Assembly: GCF_037076425.1 (NCBI RefSeq)
Contig: NZ_AP028127.1
Location: forward strand, 154,001 to 218,000
DNA: 64,000 nucleotides
Reading direction: 5' to 3'
Source of the DNA: Turicibacter faecis
GTDB taxonomy: Bacteria > Bacillota_I > Bacilli_A > MOL361 > Turicibacteraceae
Positions 5,537 through 55,652 of this stretch are shown one piece after another. Made by a program: the position numbers and the translations under genes. The stretch's first letter is position 1; every line of letters begins with the position of its first letter. The notes beneath the pieces were generated by a model. The model ran no database searches and had not been told where the DNA came from. It worked only from the letters and a program-made list of their open reading frames with translations.

Positions 5537-5585
5537 AATATTTGCTAATTATTGAGTCGTATGATAGAATAAAAAAGGAAACGAA

Positions 5586-5670
5586 ATACTAGGGGTGCCT
5601 TACGGCTGAGAGTGCATGATGCATAACCCTTTGAACCTGAACTAGTTAGGACTAGCGGAGGGAAGTAGAC
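5586..5670 (+). promoter_or_regulatory. TPP riboswitch (THI element)
   Basis: The thi-box core is plain: CTGAGAG near 5605, ACCCTTTGAACCTGA near 5627-5640, then the GGAGGGAAGT closing segment. It precedes a ThiT thiamine transporter gene, so thiamine pyrophosphate should repress the downstream gene. Confidence 0.95.
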
Positions 5671-5726
5671 GAATTTTTTATTTTTAATAAATGGGATATT
5701 CTTATACTTTTAATGATGCCGTAAAG

Positions 5727-47702: not shown

Positions 47703-48278
47703 ATGGAAATTCGCACTTATCAACAGGAGGATGAGCGTGGGTGGTTACATTGTCGGGTGTTATCTTTTCTAGATACAGCCTACTATGATATTGTCCTTAA
47801 TCAAAAGGAAACCTATAGAAACCCGGCTATTGAACTCGTTGCGATAGAGGATGATAAAGTCATTGGTCTTTTAGATATCGAGTGTGAAGAGAAACCGATG
47901 ACTCTTTGCACGGCGGATCAGACGTTAGGGGGGATGATTACGCATTTGGCCGTGCACCCGGATTATCGTAGGCAAGGGGTAGGGCAGGCTTTGTTATTAG
48001 AAGCACAAAATAGATTAGTTAAGAGTGAGATTACTTATCTCGAGGCGTGGACCCGTGACGATCTATGGGTTCATGAATGGTACCTTCATCAACAATTTGA
48101 AAAATTAGGGACCTATTTACATGTTTACATTGAGGGCAGTGATGGGATCGCATCCAAAGTTGATGGATTAATTCCGGTACAAACTTTTTGTCAGTATGTT
48201 GGAAAGGATAGTGAGAAGATAAAGAAAAAGTACAAACGTGTTCACGAATGTACCGGGTTTTATAAAAGGATTCAATAG
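47703..48278 (+). CDS. GNAT family N-acetyltransferase
   Basis: A 191-residue acetyltransferase. The core is IGLLDIECEE, then THLAVHPDYRRQGVGQALL near 80-98, which carries the acetyl-CoA pyrophosphate loop (RRQGVG). The substrate is unknown; the C-terminal part after about 130 (YLHVYIEGSDG) is longer than the minimal fold. GGGGAGATGATG precedes the ATG. The last codons overlap the convergent staygreen gene by seven bases. Confidence 0.85.
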   Translation: MEIRTYQQEDERGWLHCRVLSFLDTAYYDIVLNQKETYRNPAIELVAIEDDKVIGLLDIECEEKPMTLCTADQTLGGMITHLAVHPDYRRQGVGQALLLEAQNRLVKSEITYLEAWTRDDLWVHEWYLHQQFEKLGTYLHVYIEGSDGIASKVDGLIPVQTFCQYVGKDSEKIKKKYKRVHECTGFYKRIQ

Positions 48279-48712
48279 TCATTAAAGCAACCAAAACAAT
48301 CCGTCCGATTTAGGTGGGAATCTTGGGATTGGAAAAAAACATAAATAGGGGCTTGTAGAAACTGGGGATAGAATTGAAAAAAGGATTCATCCCCCTTTTT
48401 AATAGCTTTTAATGCTAAAGGGAGTTCGCGTAGAAAGATTTCATTTCTTTTTTCTGTTGAGGCAGTTCCATCAATTCCATCAAGCCGAATGTAAATATAA
48501 AAGTAAGGGTGACCAGACTGATGAGCTAACCATTCACCAACGACCTCATCACGCTTTGTTGTTAGTTGTTCATAGGCAAATTCGGATCCAATGACTAAAA
48601 AGAGTTCTCCCGTCTGATCAGAGTGGGTCAATGTGTACCGTCTAGGGTGTAATTGGTATAAACGGTTTAATCGGTTATTGACCCATAACTTATTCTCATT
48701 AAAGGTACTCAT
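48272..48712 (-). CDS. Staygreen (SGR) family protein
   Basis: A 146-residue protein matching the staygreen family (PF12638): PRRYTLTHSDQTGELFLVIG near 23-42, RDEVVGEWLAH near 54-64, RNEIFLRELPLALKAI near 88-103, and a final PIYVFFQSQD. Plant SGR removes magnesium from chlorophyll a, and some bacterial homologues were shown to do so; the role in bacteria without chlorophyll is open. The C terminus ends in Cys-containing FGCFNDY. The start is ATG 48712 with a GGGGGCGA site. Confidence 0.85.
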   Translation of the reverse strand: MSTFNENKLWVNNRLNRLYQLHPRRYTLTHSDQTGELFLVIGSEFAYEQLTTKRDEVVGEWLAHQSGHPYFYIYIRLDGIDGTASTEKRNEIFLRELPLALKAIKKGDESFFQFYPQFLQAPIYVFFQSQDSHLNRTDCFGCFNDY

Positions 48713-48899: not shown

Positions 48900-49296
48900 T
48901 TTTCCACAGTTTGATTCAATTATCCACAGGTTTGGGATAGATTATCCACAACGCTATTCCGCCTACATATAATATCTTTTTTCGACATTTCGAAGGGATA
49001 AAACATAAAATAAATGATAATTTTCTATTTTTATGCGTATTAATCGATAAAAATAGAAAATTTGACATTTTAACGGATATAAAACGTTGTATTTAGTTGA
49101 AAAGTAAGATAAAATGACAGTGTAATTAAATACGTTGTGGATAGCATTGCGAAGATTAACTATCTTATTGACGGATTAGGACGAATGCTTGATAAGAAAT
49201 TAATTTTTGTAAGAAACCGTAATGAAACAGTGGAAATTAGGATGAGGGAGTTAAGTCAAACAGGGTTAACCCAATTCAATGTATATCTGTGGATAA
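48900..49296. promoter_or_regulatory. Cluster of DnaA boxes
   Basis: Exact TTATCCACA at 48920-48928 and 48942-48950 and TGTGGATAA at 49288-49296. One-mismatch boxes lie at 48900-48908 and 49136-49144. The region between is very AT-rich and holds a 16-bp inverted repeat. No dnaA or dnaN is adjacent, so this is more likely a DnaA-titrating or regulatory cluster than the origin. Confidence 0.5.
49019..49062. repeat. Perfect 16-bp inverted repeat
   Basis: AATTTTCTATTTTTAT and its complement (49047-49062) around a 12-base centre. Imperfect direct copies of GACATTT...GGATA...AAAC flank it at 48984-49004 and 49064-49085. Confidence 0.8.
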
Positions 49297-49350
49297 TTTA
49301 TGGATCGCTATCATTTCGCATTTAAATCATCCCAACTTAGTACGGTTATA

Positions 49351-49386
49351 TCTAAAAAGTCCTGATATGGCCCTCAGGGCTTTTTA
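49351..49386. terminator. Terminator-like hairpin
   Basis: AAAAAGTCCTGA and TCAGGGCTTTTT around TATGGCCC. No clear gene precedes it. Confidence 0.6.
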
Positions 49387-49583: not shown

Positions 49584-49612
49584 TTGTCTTTCACTAGGGA
49601 ATAGGGTATGAT
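49584..49612 (+). promoter_or_regulatory. Promoter of the lysine operon
   Basis: TTGTCT (49584-49589) and TATGAT (49607-49612) are 17 bp apart, placing transcription start near 49619, just before the riboswitch. Confidence 0.6.
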
Positions 49613-49635
49613 AAGAACATATTTATTTGAATAGT

Positions 49636-49808
49636 TTTTAGATAGAGGTGCGGTAATTAAGAGTACTATTGAGGAGTGAAGATGTTGATGCAATAGGAAA
49701 GGAATTCTCGCCGAAGCCTATAATTGATACTTTAAGATTATAGAGCTGGTGTTAAATAAAATATATTTAACATTGTCACGGTTTGATCATCGTGGAGAGC
49801 TATCATTT
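49636..49808 (+). promoter_or_regulatory. Lysine riboswitch (L box)
   Basis: The conserved L-box core is present in order: P1 arm GATAG (49641-49645), GAGGTGCG, AGTA, GGAGTGAAGATG, GGAAAGGAATTCTCGCCGAA, GCTGG, GTCAC, and GTGGAGAGCTATC closing P1 at 49792-49804. It lies upstream of a transporter and an amidohydrolase, so both should be repressed by lysine. Recognition is by sequence only; a covariance-model hit would confirm it. Confidence 0.93.
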
Positions 49809-49844
49809 AAGAATCCCCAATAGGAATCGTGTATTCTTTTTGAG

Positions 49845-49877
49845 AAGTCTTGAGTGAAAAGCTCAAGGCTTTTTTTA
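49845..49877 (+). terminator. Riboswitch-controlled terminator
   Basis: AAGTCTTGAG (49845-49854) pairs with CTCAAGGCTT (49862-49871, one G-T pair), then a T run. It lies 40 bases before the transporter start. Confidence 0.75.
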
Positions 49878-49916
49878 TCTAGAACTATTTAAAAATTAAA
49901 GAGTAGGGGGAGTATT

Positions 49917-51347
49917 ATGATCAGTTTAGAAAACAAAACAACATGTGCAAGTGTGAAAGAAAAAAAACAATTTAAAGTTCCACACACGTTGGTGATTGTA
50001 ACTGCAATTTTAGTTTTGGTTGCCATTGCAACTTGGATTATCCCAGCCGGAACGTATGAACGTGTCGTAAATGATTTAGGAAATACGGTCGTTGTAAATG
50101 ATTCATTTTCATATGTTGAATCAACACCTCAAGGATTATTTAGTTTACTACAGGCTCCAATCCATGGAATCGTGGGGGCAGCTGAAATTATTGCCTTTTT
50201 ATTTATTGTGAGTGGTTCGATTGCGATTATTACTAAAACTCGTGCTATTGACGCGGGTATTACAAACGCGGTTAAATCATTTAAAGGAAAAGAATTATTA
50301 ATGATTCCTGTTATTATGGGTCTTTTCTCATTAGGTGGAGCTGTCTTTGGGATGACGGAAGAAGCAATTCCATTTATCGCCATGTTAATTCCTTTATGTT
50401 TAGCATTAGGTTATGACAGTATCATGGCGATGGCGCTTTCTTATATGGGATGTATTGTCGGATTTGCTACGGCAATGTTAAATCCATTTTCTGTTGGGAT
50501 TGCTCAAAGCATTGCGCAAGTTCCAGCCGGAACAGGTGTTGGTTTCCGTACAGTTATTTGGTTAGTGACAACCATCGTTTCAACCTTATATTTAATGTGG
50601 TACGGACGACGTATTAAAAAGAATCCAACTTTAAGTCCAGCTTATGAAATCGATCAAGCTCGTCGCCAGGATATGGATGCAATGGAGTCAGAACAATTAG
50701 AATTTACGATGCGTCATAAAGTAATTTTAGCCTCTATCTTAGTTTGTTTAGGCATTATCATTGTAGGGGTCTTGAAATTTGGTTTTGTTATTCCTGAAAT
50801 TTCTGCGGTGTTCTTAGCGACAGGAATTGTTTGTGGAATCATCGGACGTTTAAGTTTTGATGATATGGCTACAGCATTTATTCACGGTGCAAAAGATATG
50901 ATTAGTGCTGCTGTTGTTGTAGGTTTTGCCCGCGCGATTGTGATTATTGCCCAAGACGGTCAAATTATTGATACCATTTTATATAATTTATCGAACGTTA
51001 TTGGTCAATTACCATCATTAGTAGCAGGTTATGTGATGTTCTTTGTTCAAATGTTTATTAACTTCTTTATTTCATCAGGTTCTGGACAAGCGGCATTAAC
51101 GATGCCAATTATGGCTCCACTTGGTGAATTAGTCGGTATTACGCCACAAACATCAATTTTAATTTTCCAATTTGGAGACGGATTCTCAAATGCGATTTTC
51201 CCAACAAGTGCTGTCTTAATGGCTTGTCTTGGTGTATCGGGAATTCCATGGTCTAAATGGATGAAATGGATTTGGCCATTACAATTAATTTTTGGTGCTT
51301 TAGCTATTATTTTTATTACTATTGCTATTCTTATGGGATGGTCGTAA
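49917..51347 (+). CDS. YfcC/DcuC-like transporter under lysine control
   Basis: A 476-residue membrane protein of the YfcC/AbgT-NhaC-related (PF03606) type with about 12 helices. Conserved segments include FLFIVSGSIAIITKTRAID, FGMTEEAIPFIAMLIPLC, and a second half INFFISSGSGQAALTMPIM with a GDGFSNAIFPTSAV loop. Family members carry amino acids, C4-acids or p-aminobenzoyl-glutamate. The lysine riboswitch upstream and the M20 gene 12 bp downstream suggest uptake of lysine or a lysine conjugate. GGGGGAG precedes the ATG. Confidence 0.85.
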   Translation: MISLENKTTCASVKEKKQFKVPHTLVIVTAILVLVAIATWIIPAGTYERVVNDLGNTVVVNDSFSYVESTPQGLFSLLQAPIHGIVGAAEIIAFLFIVSGSIAIITKTRAIDAGITNAVKSFKGKELLMIPVIMGLFSLGGAVFGMTEEAIPFIAMLIPLCLALGYDSIMAMALSYMGCIVGFATAMLNPFSVGIAQSIAQVPAGTGVGFRTVIWLVTTIVSTLYLMWYGRRIKKNPTLSPAYEIDQARRQDMDAMESEQLEFTMRHKVILASILVCLGIIIVGVLKFGFVIPEISAVFLATGIVCGIIGRLSFDDMATAFIHGAKDMISAAVVVGFARAIVIIAQDGQIIDTILYNLSNVIGQLPSLVAGYVMFFVQMFINFFISSGSGQAALTMPIMAPLGELVGITPQTSILIFQFGDGFSNAIFPTSAVLMACLGVSGIPWSKWMKWIWPLQLIFGALAIIFITIAILMGWS

Positions 51348-51359
51348 GGGGGATTTATC

Positions 51360-52490
51360 ATGAAAGAACAATTAAAAGTAATTAGTGAGTCGTTAAAAGA
51401 TCGTTTAGTTGAAATGAATCGATATATTCATGACCATCCTGAACTTGGAAATCAGGAACACGAAGCGGTAAATGTATTAACAACTTTTTTACGAGAAAAT
51501 GGATTTGAAATTAAATGTCCAGTTGCCGGATTAGACACAGCCTTTGAGGCGGTTTATGATAGTAAAAAACCTGGATTATCAGTGGCTTATTTGTGTGAAT
51601 ATGATGCCCTACCTGAACTTGGACACGGTTGTGGACATAATATGATCGGTGTAATGAGTGCAGGGGCAGGTGTTGCATTAAGTAAGGTAATTGATGAGAT
51701 TGGTGGAAAAGTCTATGTCTTCGGAACACCAGCAGAGGAAACAAATGGTGCTAAAGTTACAATGACAGAGGCCGGATTGTTCAATGGAATGGATGCTGTA
51801 ATGATGGTGCACCCCTCGGGATTTACGACAGAGAGCGGGACATCGTTAGCAATGGAGGCGTTGCAATTTGATTACACAGGCCGTCCAGCGCATGCGGCCG
51901 CCGCACCAGAAAAGGGAATTAATGCATTAAATGCGGTGATTCAATTATTTAATGGGATTGATGCCTTACGCCAACATGTGACGCCAGATGTAAGAATGCA
52001 TGGAATTATTACGAACGGTGGAGTGGCAGCAAATATTGTACCGGAACATGCAACCGCCCAATTTTATATTCGTGCAGCAACGAAAGAGTACCTAGCCGTT
52101 GTGAAGGAAAAGGTATTAGGGATTGCTAACGGCGCTGCTTTAATGACGGGAGCCACTTTAGAGGTGAGTAACTACGAGATTTCATATGACGATTTAAAAA
52201 CAAATGAACTTCTTTCAGAGACATTTAATGAGAATATTCGTTCATTAGGAATCGAAGAAATTAAAAAGCCGTCTAAGAGCACAGGGTCAGTAGATATCGG
52301 AAATATTAGTAATATTTGTCCAACTATTCATCCGTATATCGGAATTGCTGATTGTGAAATTACGGGACATTCTCAACAGATGGTAGATGCAACTGTTACA
52401 GATTTTGCCCATGATCGCTTAGTGATAGCAACAACGGCTCTTGCTTATACGGGATATGATGTATTAGCAGGAAATGTTAAATTAAAATAA
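51360..52490 (+). CDS. M20 family amidohydrolase
   Basis: A 376-residue zinc peptidase/deacylase related to AbgB, N-acyl-amino-acid amidohydrolases and carboxypeptidase Ss1. Metal site: HDHPELGNQE near 25-34, ELGHGCGHNMIGV near 90-102, PAEETNGAKV near 134-143, and a C-terminal His in ITGHSQQMV near 345. The GRPAHAAAAPEKGINALNA segment fits the dimerisation domain. It forms a two-gene operon with the YfcC transporter under a lysine riboswitch, so a plausible substrate is an N-acylated or peptide-linked lysine, not proven. No signal peptide. Confidence 0.9.
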   Translation: MKEQLKVISESLKDRLVEMNRYIHDHPELGNQEHEAVNVLTTFLRENGFEIKCPVAGLDTAFEAVYDSKKPGLSVAYLCEYDALPELGHGCGHNMIGVMSAGAGVALSKVIDEIGGKVYVFGTPAEETNGAKVTMTEAGLFNGMDAVMMVHPSGFTTESGTSLAMEALQFDYTGRPAHAAAAPEKGINALNAVIQLFNGIDALRQHVTPDVRMHGIITNGGVAANIVPEHATAQFYIRAATKEYLAVVKEKVLGIANGAALMTGATLEVSNYEISYDDLKTNELLSETFNENIRSLGIEEIKKPSKSTGSVDIGNISNICPTIHPYIGIADCEITGHSQQMVDATVTDFAHDRLVIATTALAYTGYDVLAGNVKLK

Positions 52491-52500
52491 AAATCATCTT

Positions 52501-52553
52501 TGGTGTGCACCCCAAATGTTAGACTAAAAATCTAATGTTAGGGGTGCTTTTTT
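52501..52553 (+). repeat. Solitary IS3-type left end acting as terminator
   Basis: This 53-base stretch matches the left end of the IS at 55667-55720 with only about four differences, starting TGxTGTGCACCCC. It forms a GCACCCC/GGGGTGC stem followed by T7. No transposase or right end is present. It lies ten bases after the M20 stop, where it should end the lysine operon transcript. Confidence 0.8.
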
Positions 52554-52599
52554 TATTGTTTTATTCTCCTTATAGCGATATTCAAGATACGGCTATTGA

Positions 52600-54284: not shown

Positions 54285-55652
54285 ATGAGAAAGAGACTTC
54301 TTCTAATGACAAGCCTGATTAGCTTTTTATTTATTTCCTCGTTGAATGTTTATGCGAGTGAGTTTATTGAATTTCCAGATGAGCGTTTAGAAGTTGCGAT
54401 TCTTGAGGAAATGGGGAAAAAGGAAAACGATAAGATTTCAGTAGCAGAGGCACAAAAGGTACAATTTTTACCCCTTTCAAATAAGGGAATTCAAAATCTA
54501 GAGGGGATTCAGTATTTTGAAAATGTTAATCATCTACAATTAGGGTTTAATCAACTAACAGACATCACCCCATTACATAAGTTGGATAACCTTAATATTT
54601 TAGATTTACAAGGTAATCAACTTGAAGATATTTCCCCCCTAGAAGGCCTAGAACATTTAGTCTCTTTAAATCTTAATGGTAATAACTTAGGAACGTTAGA
54701 ATCTCTTACTAAGATTCATGGCCTAGGTTATTTGTATGTGAATAATAACCAAATTAAAGATATTTCCCCGACAGCTCATTTGGAAAAACTAGATGTATTT
54801 GATTATTCAGGTAATCAAGTCAGTGATATTAGTTGTCTAACCCGATATCATGAATTACGATATGGGGATTTAACTAAACAACAGATAGTCCTTCCTACTC
54901 AAAAGGTGAAAAAAGGGAGCGATGTGATTATCGACAATCCAATAAAGACTGTTGAAGGGGGAGTCGAGGATATTACGGTTAAAAACGGAATATATGATGA
55001 GTCTACCAATCAGATTATGATAGAAAATGTGACGGAGGATCAAACGGTGGAATACGCCTTTGAAGCGACGATTGACTATCCTAAGTATGGGGGGAAAATT
55101 GATTTCACTGGTACGGTGACAATGGATATTCAAACAACATTAGGCGGGTTGCCTATTTTATACGGGGTAGATGATATTGAGATTCCATATGGTAAAGAAT
55201 TTGATTTATTAGAGGGAGTTACGGCGCAAGATGCTGAGGGGGTAGATTTAACGGAACAAATTGTAGTTGAAGGAGAAATTGATGTTTTTACAGCAGGGGA
55301 TTATGAAATTATTTACCGCGTAACGGATAGTGAGGGTCAGATCGAAACCGTGCACCGACTTGTGACTGTTGCGACTCCAGTTATCGGAAACCAATCTCCA
55401 GTTATTAATGCACAGAATCGTATTGTTAACAAGGGAGATAGCTTTAATCCATTAGAAGGTGTGACGGCAATGGATGAAGAAGACGGCGAATTGACTGCTA
55501 ACATCGAAGTAATTAATAATACTGTTAATGTCAATGAAATAGGTATTTATGAAGTGACCTATCGCGTACAAGATTCTAATGGGGCGACCACTATTATAAC
55601 GGTTGATGTAGAGGTACATGATATTCCAACCACCGGATTTTCACTATTTTAA
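54285..55652 (+). CDS. Leucine-rich repeat surface protein with Ig-like domains
   Basis: A 455-residue secreted protein: signal peptide 1-25 (cut near VYAS), a cap, about five leucine-rich repeats between 65 and 195 (e.g. LNILDLQGNQLEDISPLEGL), a linker, and two DUF5011/HYR-like Ig folds (about 290-365 and 370-450; LLEGVTAQDAEGVDLT, PLEGVTAMDEEDGELT). It ends IPTTGFSLF, which looks like a sortase motif without the usual hydrophobic tail. Resembles internalins. AAAGGAAG precedes the ATG. It ends in a terminator split by the IS. Confidence 0.85.
   Translation: MRKRLLLMTSLISFLFISSLNVYASEFIEFPDERLEVAILEEMGKKENDKISVAEAQKVQFLPLSNKGIQNLEGIQYFENVNHLQLGFNQLTDITPLHKLDNLNILDLQGNQLEDISPLEGLEHLVSLNLNGNNLGTLESLTKIHGLGYLYVNNNQIKDISPTAHLEKLDVFDYSGNQVSDISCLTRYHELRYGDLTKQQIVLPTQKVKKGSDVIIDNPIKTVEGGVEDITVKNGIYDESTNQIMIENVTEDQTVEYAFEATIDYPKYGGKIDFTGTVTMDIQTTLGGLPILYGVDDIEIPYGKEFDLLEGVTAQDAEGVDLTEQIVVEGEIDVFTAGDYEIIYRVTDSEGQIETVHRLVTVATPVIGNQSPVINAQNRIVNKGDSFNPLEGVTAMDEEDGELTANIEVINNTVNVNEIGIYEVTYRVQDSNGATTIITVDVEVHDIPTTGFSLF

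Follow-up and report, generated by a model that had tools for sequence, protein, structure and literature searches.

The locus raises the question of why a lysine riboswitch (L-box) should stand in front of a YfcC-type carrier and an M20 hydrolase in Turicibacter faecis, and what the two proteins would do for the cell. We analyzed the window, that is, the whole stretch of 64,000 nucleotides, together with targeted stretches of its host genome (2.43 Mb, one contig; 95% identical proteins are found in Turicibacter sp. UBA7094). Our best explanation, which we regard as somewhat probable, is a riboswitch-repressed salvage operon for lysine-containing dipeptides or conjugates, representing a portable basic-amino-acid cassette with an exchangeable sensor. 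The features concerned, all on the + strand, are the following:

49584-49612, +: candidate promoter (weak), TTGTCT-17-TATGAT, with 9/12 consensus bases
49635-49810, +: lysine riboswitch aptamer (L-box) with intact core (RF00168, 113.1 bits)
49797-49864, +: predicted antiterminator, P1 3' strand (49797-49812) paired with the terminator 5' half (49848-49864), from the minimum-free-energy fold
49843-49878, +: predicted intrinsic terminator, exclusive with the antiterminator and appearing once P1 is forced
49917-51347, +: yfcC-type carrier of the DcuC family, IT superfamily, 476 aa (profile matches, AlphaFold2 model)
51360-52490, +: M20D hydrolase of the PM20D2/HmrA kind, 376 aa (profiles, structure comparison)
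52507-52554, +: likely operon terminator, GCACCCC ... GGGGTGC followed by a T-run (read by eye)

Assignment of the leader to the lysine riboswitch class, as claimed in the preliminary description, was confirmed by an Rfam covariance search with RF00168, in which the match at 49635-49810 reached 113.1 bits (gathering score 30, E 2e-29) and spanned the whole model (positions 1-182 of 182). When the RNA was aligned with 11 other L-boxes, the junction core proved to be conserved (AGAGGUGCG, AGUA, GAAAGG, GCCGAAG and GUCAC). In the predicted folds, the P1 3' strand has two alternative partners, the aptamer or the 5' half of the terminator: the unconstrained leader folds into the antiterminator (-64.7 kcal/mol), whereas the leader with P1 forced forms the terminator (-58.5 kcal/mol), a 13-bp hairpin at 49843-49873 followed by a U-run, and lysine binding would have to supply the gap of 6 kcal/mol between the two. 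An equivalent P1/antiterminator alternative is predicted by folding for loci L007, L009, L016 and L139. The controlled terminator that had been described earlier is thus borne out by mutually exclusive predicted structures and, as modelled, the leader is a standard OFF-switch layout in which P1 competes with the antiterminator. Overall, lysine control of the operon is well supported at the level of sequence. The promoter fared less well, for although nine of its 12 bases match the consensus, promoter-like sites in the region numbered 15 against a mean of 19.2 in shuffled sequence, so that no excess was seen.

Downstream of the L-box, yfcC and the M20 gene are adjacent and only 12 bp apart, in agreement with the earlier description of two coupled genes. 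The inverted repeat at 52507-52554 is absent from the output of the terminator scan, which was run with a loop limit of 8 bases.

Upstream of the intact aptamer, the window also holds traces of another one:

49134-49318, +: decayed second L-box, core lost (custom model R1, 19.1 bits)
49355-49385, +: terminator belonging to the decayed upstream L-box (sequence)

The orthologous copy in L005 (1747-1931) scores 69.6 bits with the same custom model, and the terminator at 49355-49385 has hardly changed in L005; terminator 1 of L135 and L143 is homologous to it. The tandem L-box shows reciprocal decay. In the window's genome and in L005, it is the upstream aptamer that has degenerated, with the downstream one intact. 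Three other Turicibacter (L135, L139 and L143) have instead kept the upstream aptamer intact, and of their downstream copy only a P1 3' strand and a terminator are left, a remnant that sits between terminator 1 and yfcC.

We then focused our attention on the carrier. It matches the DcuC family (PF03606) with 367.7 bits (gathering score 23.1, E 1e-109), far higher than its match to ABG_transport (PF03806; 33 bits, cut-off 27). Its best NCBIfam match is the YfcC model NF008611, at 416.1 bits and under the equivalog cut-off of 500; judged from these profiles, the carrier is a YfcC relative and not the E. coli equivalog. NCBIfam labels YfcC as a putative basic amino acid antiporter. The AlphaFold2 model (pLDDT 80) has as its nearest PDB folds the AbgT-family proteins YdaH and MtrF, the latter being described as an efflux pump.

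The M20 protein scored 204.6 bits against the TIGR01891 amidohydrolase model (cut-off 153.75). Its residues Cys91, His93, Glu126, Glu127, His151 and His337 are invariant across the aligned set, and these conserved Cys/His/Glu motif residues are the presumed metal ligands of the family. Among solved structures, the closest are HmrA of Staphylococcus aureus (PDB 3ram; 274 bits, 38% identity) and human PM20D2 (PDB 7yh4, 8xzc, 8zei and 8zel; 213 bits, 34% identity), the next relative being found at 65 bits only, and the AlphaFold2 model (pLDDT 93.7) superposes on them with TM-scores of 0.92 and 0.88, respectively. By both sequence and fold, the window's M20 therefore groups with PM20D2 and HmrA, well apart from YxeP, AbgB and DapE, and it shares with PM20D2 the GH-x-CGHN and PAEE motifs of the same M20D subgroup. 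PM20D2 is an animal enzyme, named beta-alanyl-lysine (Xaa-Arg) dipeptidase in the titles of its PDB entries, an identification credited to Veiga-da-Cunha 2014 in PMC13311154. HmrA differs in this respect, since the titles cited in PMC11511702 present it and other M20D enzymes as endopeptidases or Met-X carboxydipeptidases; because HmrA-type enzymes are reported with such other activities, membership of the subgroup alone cannot fix the specificity. The window's genome carries a second PM20D2/HmrA-like gene (C1:605712; 47% identical), at which no matching L-box was detected.

To place the arrangement in a broader context, we surveyed 80 fetched M20 loci, plus YfcC in two further families. A yfcC gene adjoins or is near M20 in 23 of the 80 loci, and these include 10 with an L-box and six with an arginine T-box. 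In the remaining 57, which lack an adjacent yfcC, L-boxes are absent altogether, and an Arg T-box immediately precedes M20 in two (L015 and L019); the association between sensor and yfcC has a Fisher p of 1e-9 (phylogeny not corrected). The L-box therefore recurs at YfcC-M20 pairs, as the survey proposed in the preliminary description was meant to establish, and in Turicibacter it precedes the pair in genomes G079, G081 and G082. In the two additional families, L-boxes precede yfcC in L215, L224-L227, L229, L230, L234 and L236; L216 has an Arg T-box in front of it. Arg T-boxes lie upstream of orthologous YfcC-M20 pairs in Peptostreptococcaceae (L017, L020, L024, L025, L032 and L216) and upstream of one distant pair (L078), and an L-box is found with yfcC but without an adjacent M20 in L120, L227 and L234. 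One Terrisporobacter genome (G012) combines these arrangements, with one L-boxed yfcC next to M20 (L119), the one without it (L120) and an Arg-T-boxed YfcC-M20 pair (L017).

In the YfcC tree, the Arg T-box members form a clade nested in the L-box members, with L078 as a distant second case, and L-boxes are found again on separate branches; the M20 tree agrees. Moreover, within one YfcC clade, M20 accompanies six of seven L-box members versus none of ten others (Fisher p 0.0006, without correction for phylogeny). At one locus (L236, 2777-3901), an L-box and yfcC occur with a different, YxeP-like M20D hydrolase, a pairing that suggests that YfcC has recruited M20 enzymes more than once. Weak RNA motifs were sought in L023, L069, L040, L057, L075 and L076, and none was found there. 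The T-boxes of Virgibacillus (L065-L067) were set aside, as a proS-like gene, not M20, lies downstream of them.

The amino acid read by the T-boxes was deduced from the specifier loop, which has the form GAA-N-AGA-N-stem in all nine. For T-boxes found in the genome of the window, the same reading rule returned the codon to be expected in each case (Trp, Leu, Ser, Asn, Tyr, His, Ala, Phe, Thr, Ile and Gly), the tRNA-synthetase genes behind these controls having been identified by eye from their translations. Between GAA and the codon lie 0 to 2 bases, and the nine Arg T-boxes share the spacing of AsnS and AlaS. A Lys (AAG) specifier was also considered, but AGA was preferred, being the sole triplet that is invariant throughout the nine and lying in a loop with the geometry of the AsnS and AlaS controls.

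Comparison of 15 L-box M20s with eight Arg-T-box orthologues separated the two groups at only four of about 376 columns, namely 163, 246, 276 (Tyr vs Asn) and 319 (Ile/Val vs Lys/Arg). Position 276 aligns with Tyr314 of PM20D2, a residue replaced by Phe in the structures 8xzc and 8zel; Tyr is kept at this position in the independently T-boxed L078, and Phe is present in the second L-box clade (L225). In the aligned sequences, the swap from a lysine to an arginine sensor coincides with the change of Tyr276 to Asn, a correspondence that is suggestive only and represents a single clade and event. It is conceivable, and we propose it tentatively, that the amino acid preference of the YfcC-M20 cassette was re-tuned by joint exchange of the RNA sensor (L-box to Arg T-box) and of this residue.

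Based on these results, plentiful lysine would cause the riboswitch to terminate transcription and repress the two-gene operon. Under lysine shortage, the P1 3' strand would instead take the 5' half of the terminator, as the folds and their conservation in homologues indicate, and RNA polymerase would continue. The YfcC-type carrier would then most likely import a lysine-containing dipeptide or acyl conjugate, from which a cytosolic, metal-dependent M20D dipeptidase of the PM20D2 kind may free lysine, as homology and regulation suggest together. In the light of the sequence comparisons, YfcC-M20 may be a general salvage cassette for basic amino acids, in which a lysine riboswitch and an arginine T-box have been exchanged between lineages. 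Such import and release had been inferred in the preliminary description; the position of M20 near PM20D2 and the Arg T-boxes of relatives speak for it, but free lysine could also be the cargo of YfcC. Under this alternative, which we consider rather unlikely, YfcC would import free lysine or exchange basic amino acids, and M20 would separately release lysine from dipeptides delivered by other permeases or by internal turnover. The three L-boxed yfcC genes without an adjacent M20, the two Arg-T-boxed M20 genes without yfcC and the NCBIfam naming are all compatible with it, but the tight pairing across many lineages, together with the clade in which M20 follows the L-box in six of seven members and none of the ten others, suggests a common substrate.

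Compared with the salvage of lysine-containing dipeptides or conjugates, the other explanations have less in their favor. It is improbable that YfcC serves pH or charge homeostasis by exporting or exchanging cations or amino acids, with lysine as a mere nutritional signal, even if a like proposal exists for an L-box-controlled NhaC protein (PMC11477304) and MtrF is among the nearest folds. This would leave both the co-regulated M20 dipeptidase and the replacement of L-box by Arg T-box unexplained. The specificities listed for HmrA-type enzymes in the titles quoted by PMC11511702 could also mean that the regulation is real and the operon handles an amide of another kind, for example a Met-X dipeptide or an N-acyl amino acid from the host, but we find this highly improbable, as the control recurs through lysine or arginine sensors and not through others. 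A role of M20 as the N-acetyl-diaminopimelate deacylase of lysine biosynthesis is the least credible of all. Some M20D enzymes do function in that pathway, and lysine control would fit biosynthesis, but the genome has a complete-looking lysA-lysC-M20D-asd-dapA-dapB-dapH operon at C1:384 kb with a different M20D, and the window's M20 has PM20D2 and HmrA as its neighbours, with YxeP and DapE far removed. Since the genome encodes this biosynthetic-operon M20D, the window's enzyme is not needed as a deacylase, and that role was rejected. Lysine auxotrophy was likewise rejected as the reason for the operon: lysA and the full lysine pathway are present, so salvage of lysine is not obligatory.

The pairing of an L-box with YfcC and M20, presented earlier as a departure from known L-box targets, turned out not to be new. 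A 2024 review (PMC11477304) reports the same arrangement in Clostridioides difficile, where a lysine riboswitch precedes yfcC and an M20D amidohydrolase in an apparent operon of uncharacterised function (CD3100-3099); the review proposes no substrate, link to PM20D2 or arginine T-box counterpart. In the Peptostreptococcaceae loci L224-L230, which we assume to be of the CD3100 type, identity to the proteins of the window is about 41% for YfcC and about 38% for M20. A lysine riboswitch survey from 2017 leaves YfcC unmentioned, and the amidohydrolases in it sit in lysine operons of Thermotogales. For the Arg T-box counterpart of YfcC-M20, no earlier report was found in the literature searched. 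What is added here is the recurrence of an L-box before yfcC on several separate YfcC branches, the Arg T-box orthologues and the change at residue 276. The salvage of p-aminobenzoyl-glutamate by abgABT follows a like logic, with an IT-superfamily carrier (AbgT) and an M20D hydrolase (AbgAB), but the window's carrier is better placed in the DcuC family than with AbgT, the released amino acid is different, and AbgB (3io1) is a distant relative of the window's M20. The L-box-controlled transporter LysW (NhaC-like) belongs to a carrier family unrelated to YfcC and has no partner hydrolase. HmrA is not known to be under lysine control.

Many YfcC and M20D proteins carry mere antiporter or amidohydrolase labels; the RNA sensors indicate their product, lysine or arginine depending on the lineage, and thereby offer a substrate on which both proteins of gut bacteria can be tested directly. 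In addition, the orthologous L-box and Arg-T-box operons represent a natural pair whose sensors and enzyme specificities may have shifted together.

Further RNA sensors and genes were observed along the way. No L-box was detected by Rfam at the lysine biosynthesis operon of the window's genome (G000:C1:384199, L260), and the relatives Turicibacter G079, G081 and G082 keep one at theirs. One further L-box of the window's genome lies before an NhaC-like (LysW) gene, and a T-box with the Arg specifier CGC precedes an amino-acid ABC transporter (G000:C1:789556-789780, L268). A TPP riboswitch is present in the window at 5581-5680 on the + strand (RF00059, 77.4 bits). At 54285-55652 (+), an open reading frame with a signal-like N-terminus and leucine-rich-repeat-like segments is, by eye, likely a surface protein. 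The window also encodes, at 48272-48712 on the - strand, a protein of the Staygreen family (PF12638, E 5e-42), which is familiar from chlorophyll breakdown in plants and is found here in a gut bacterium; an open reading frame resembling it lies close to M20 in Clostridium zeae (L026, 8191-8646).
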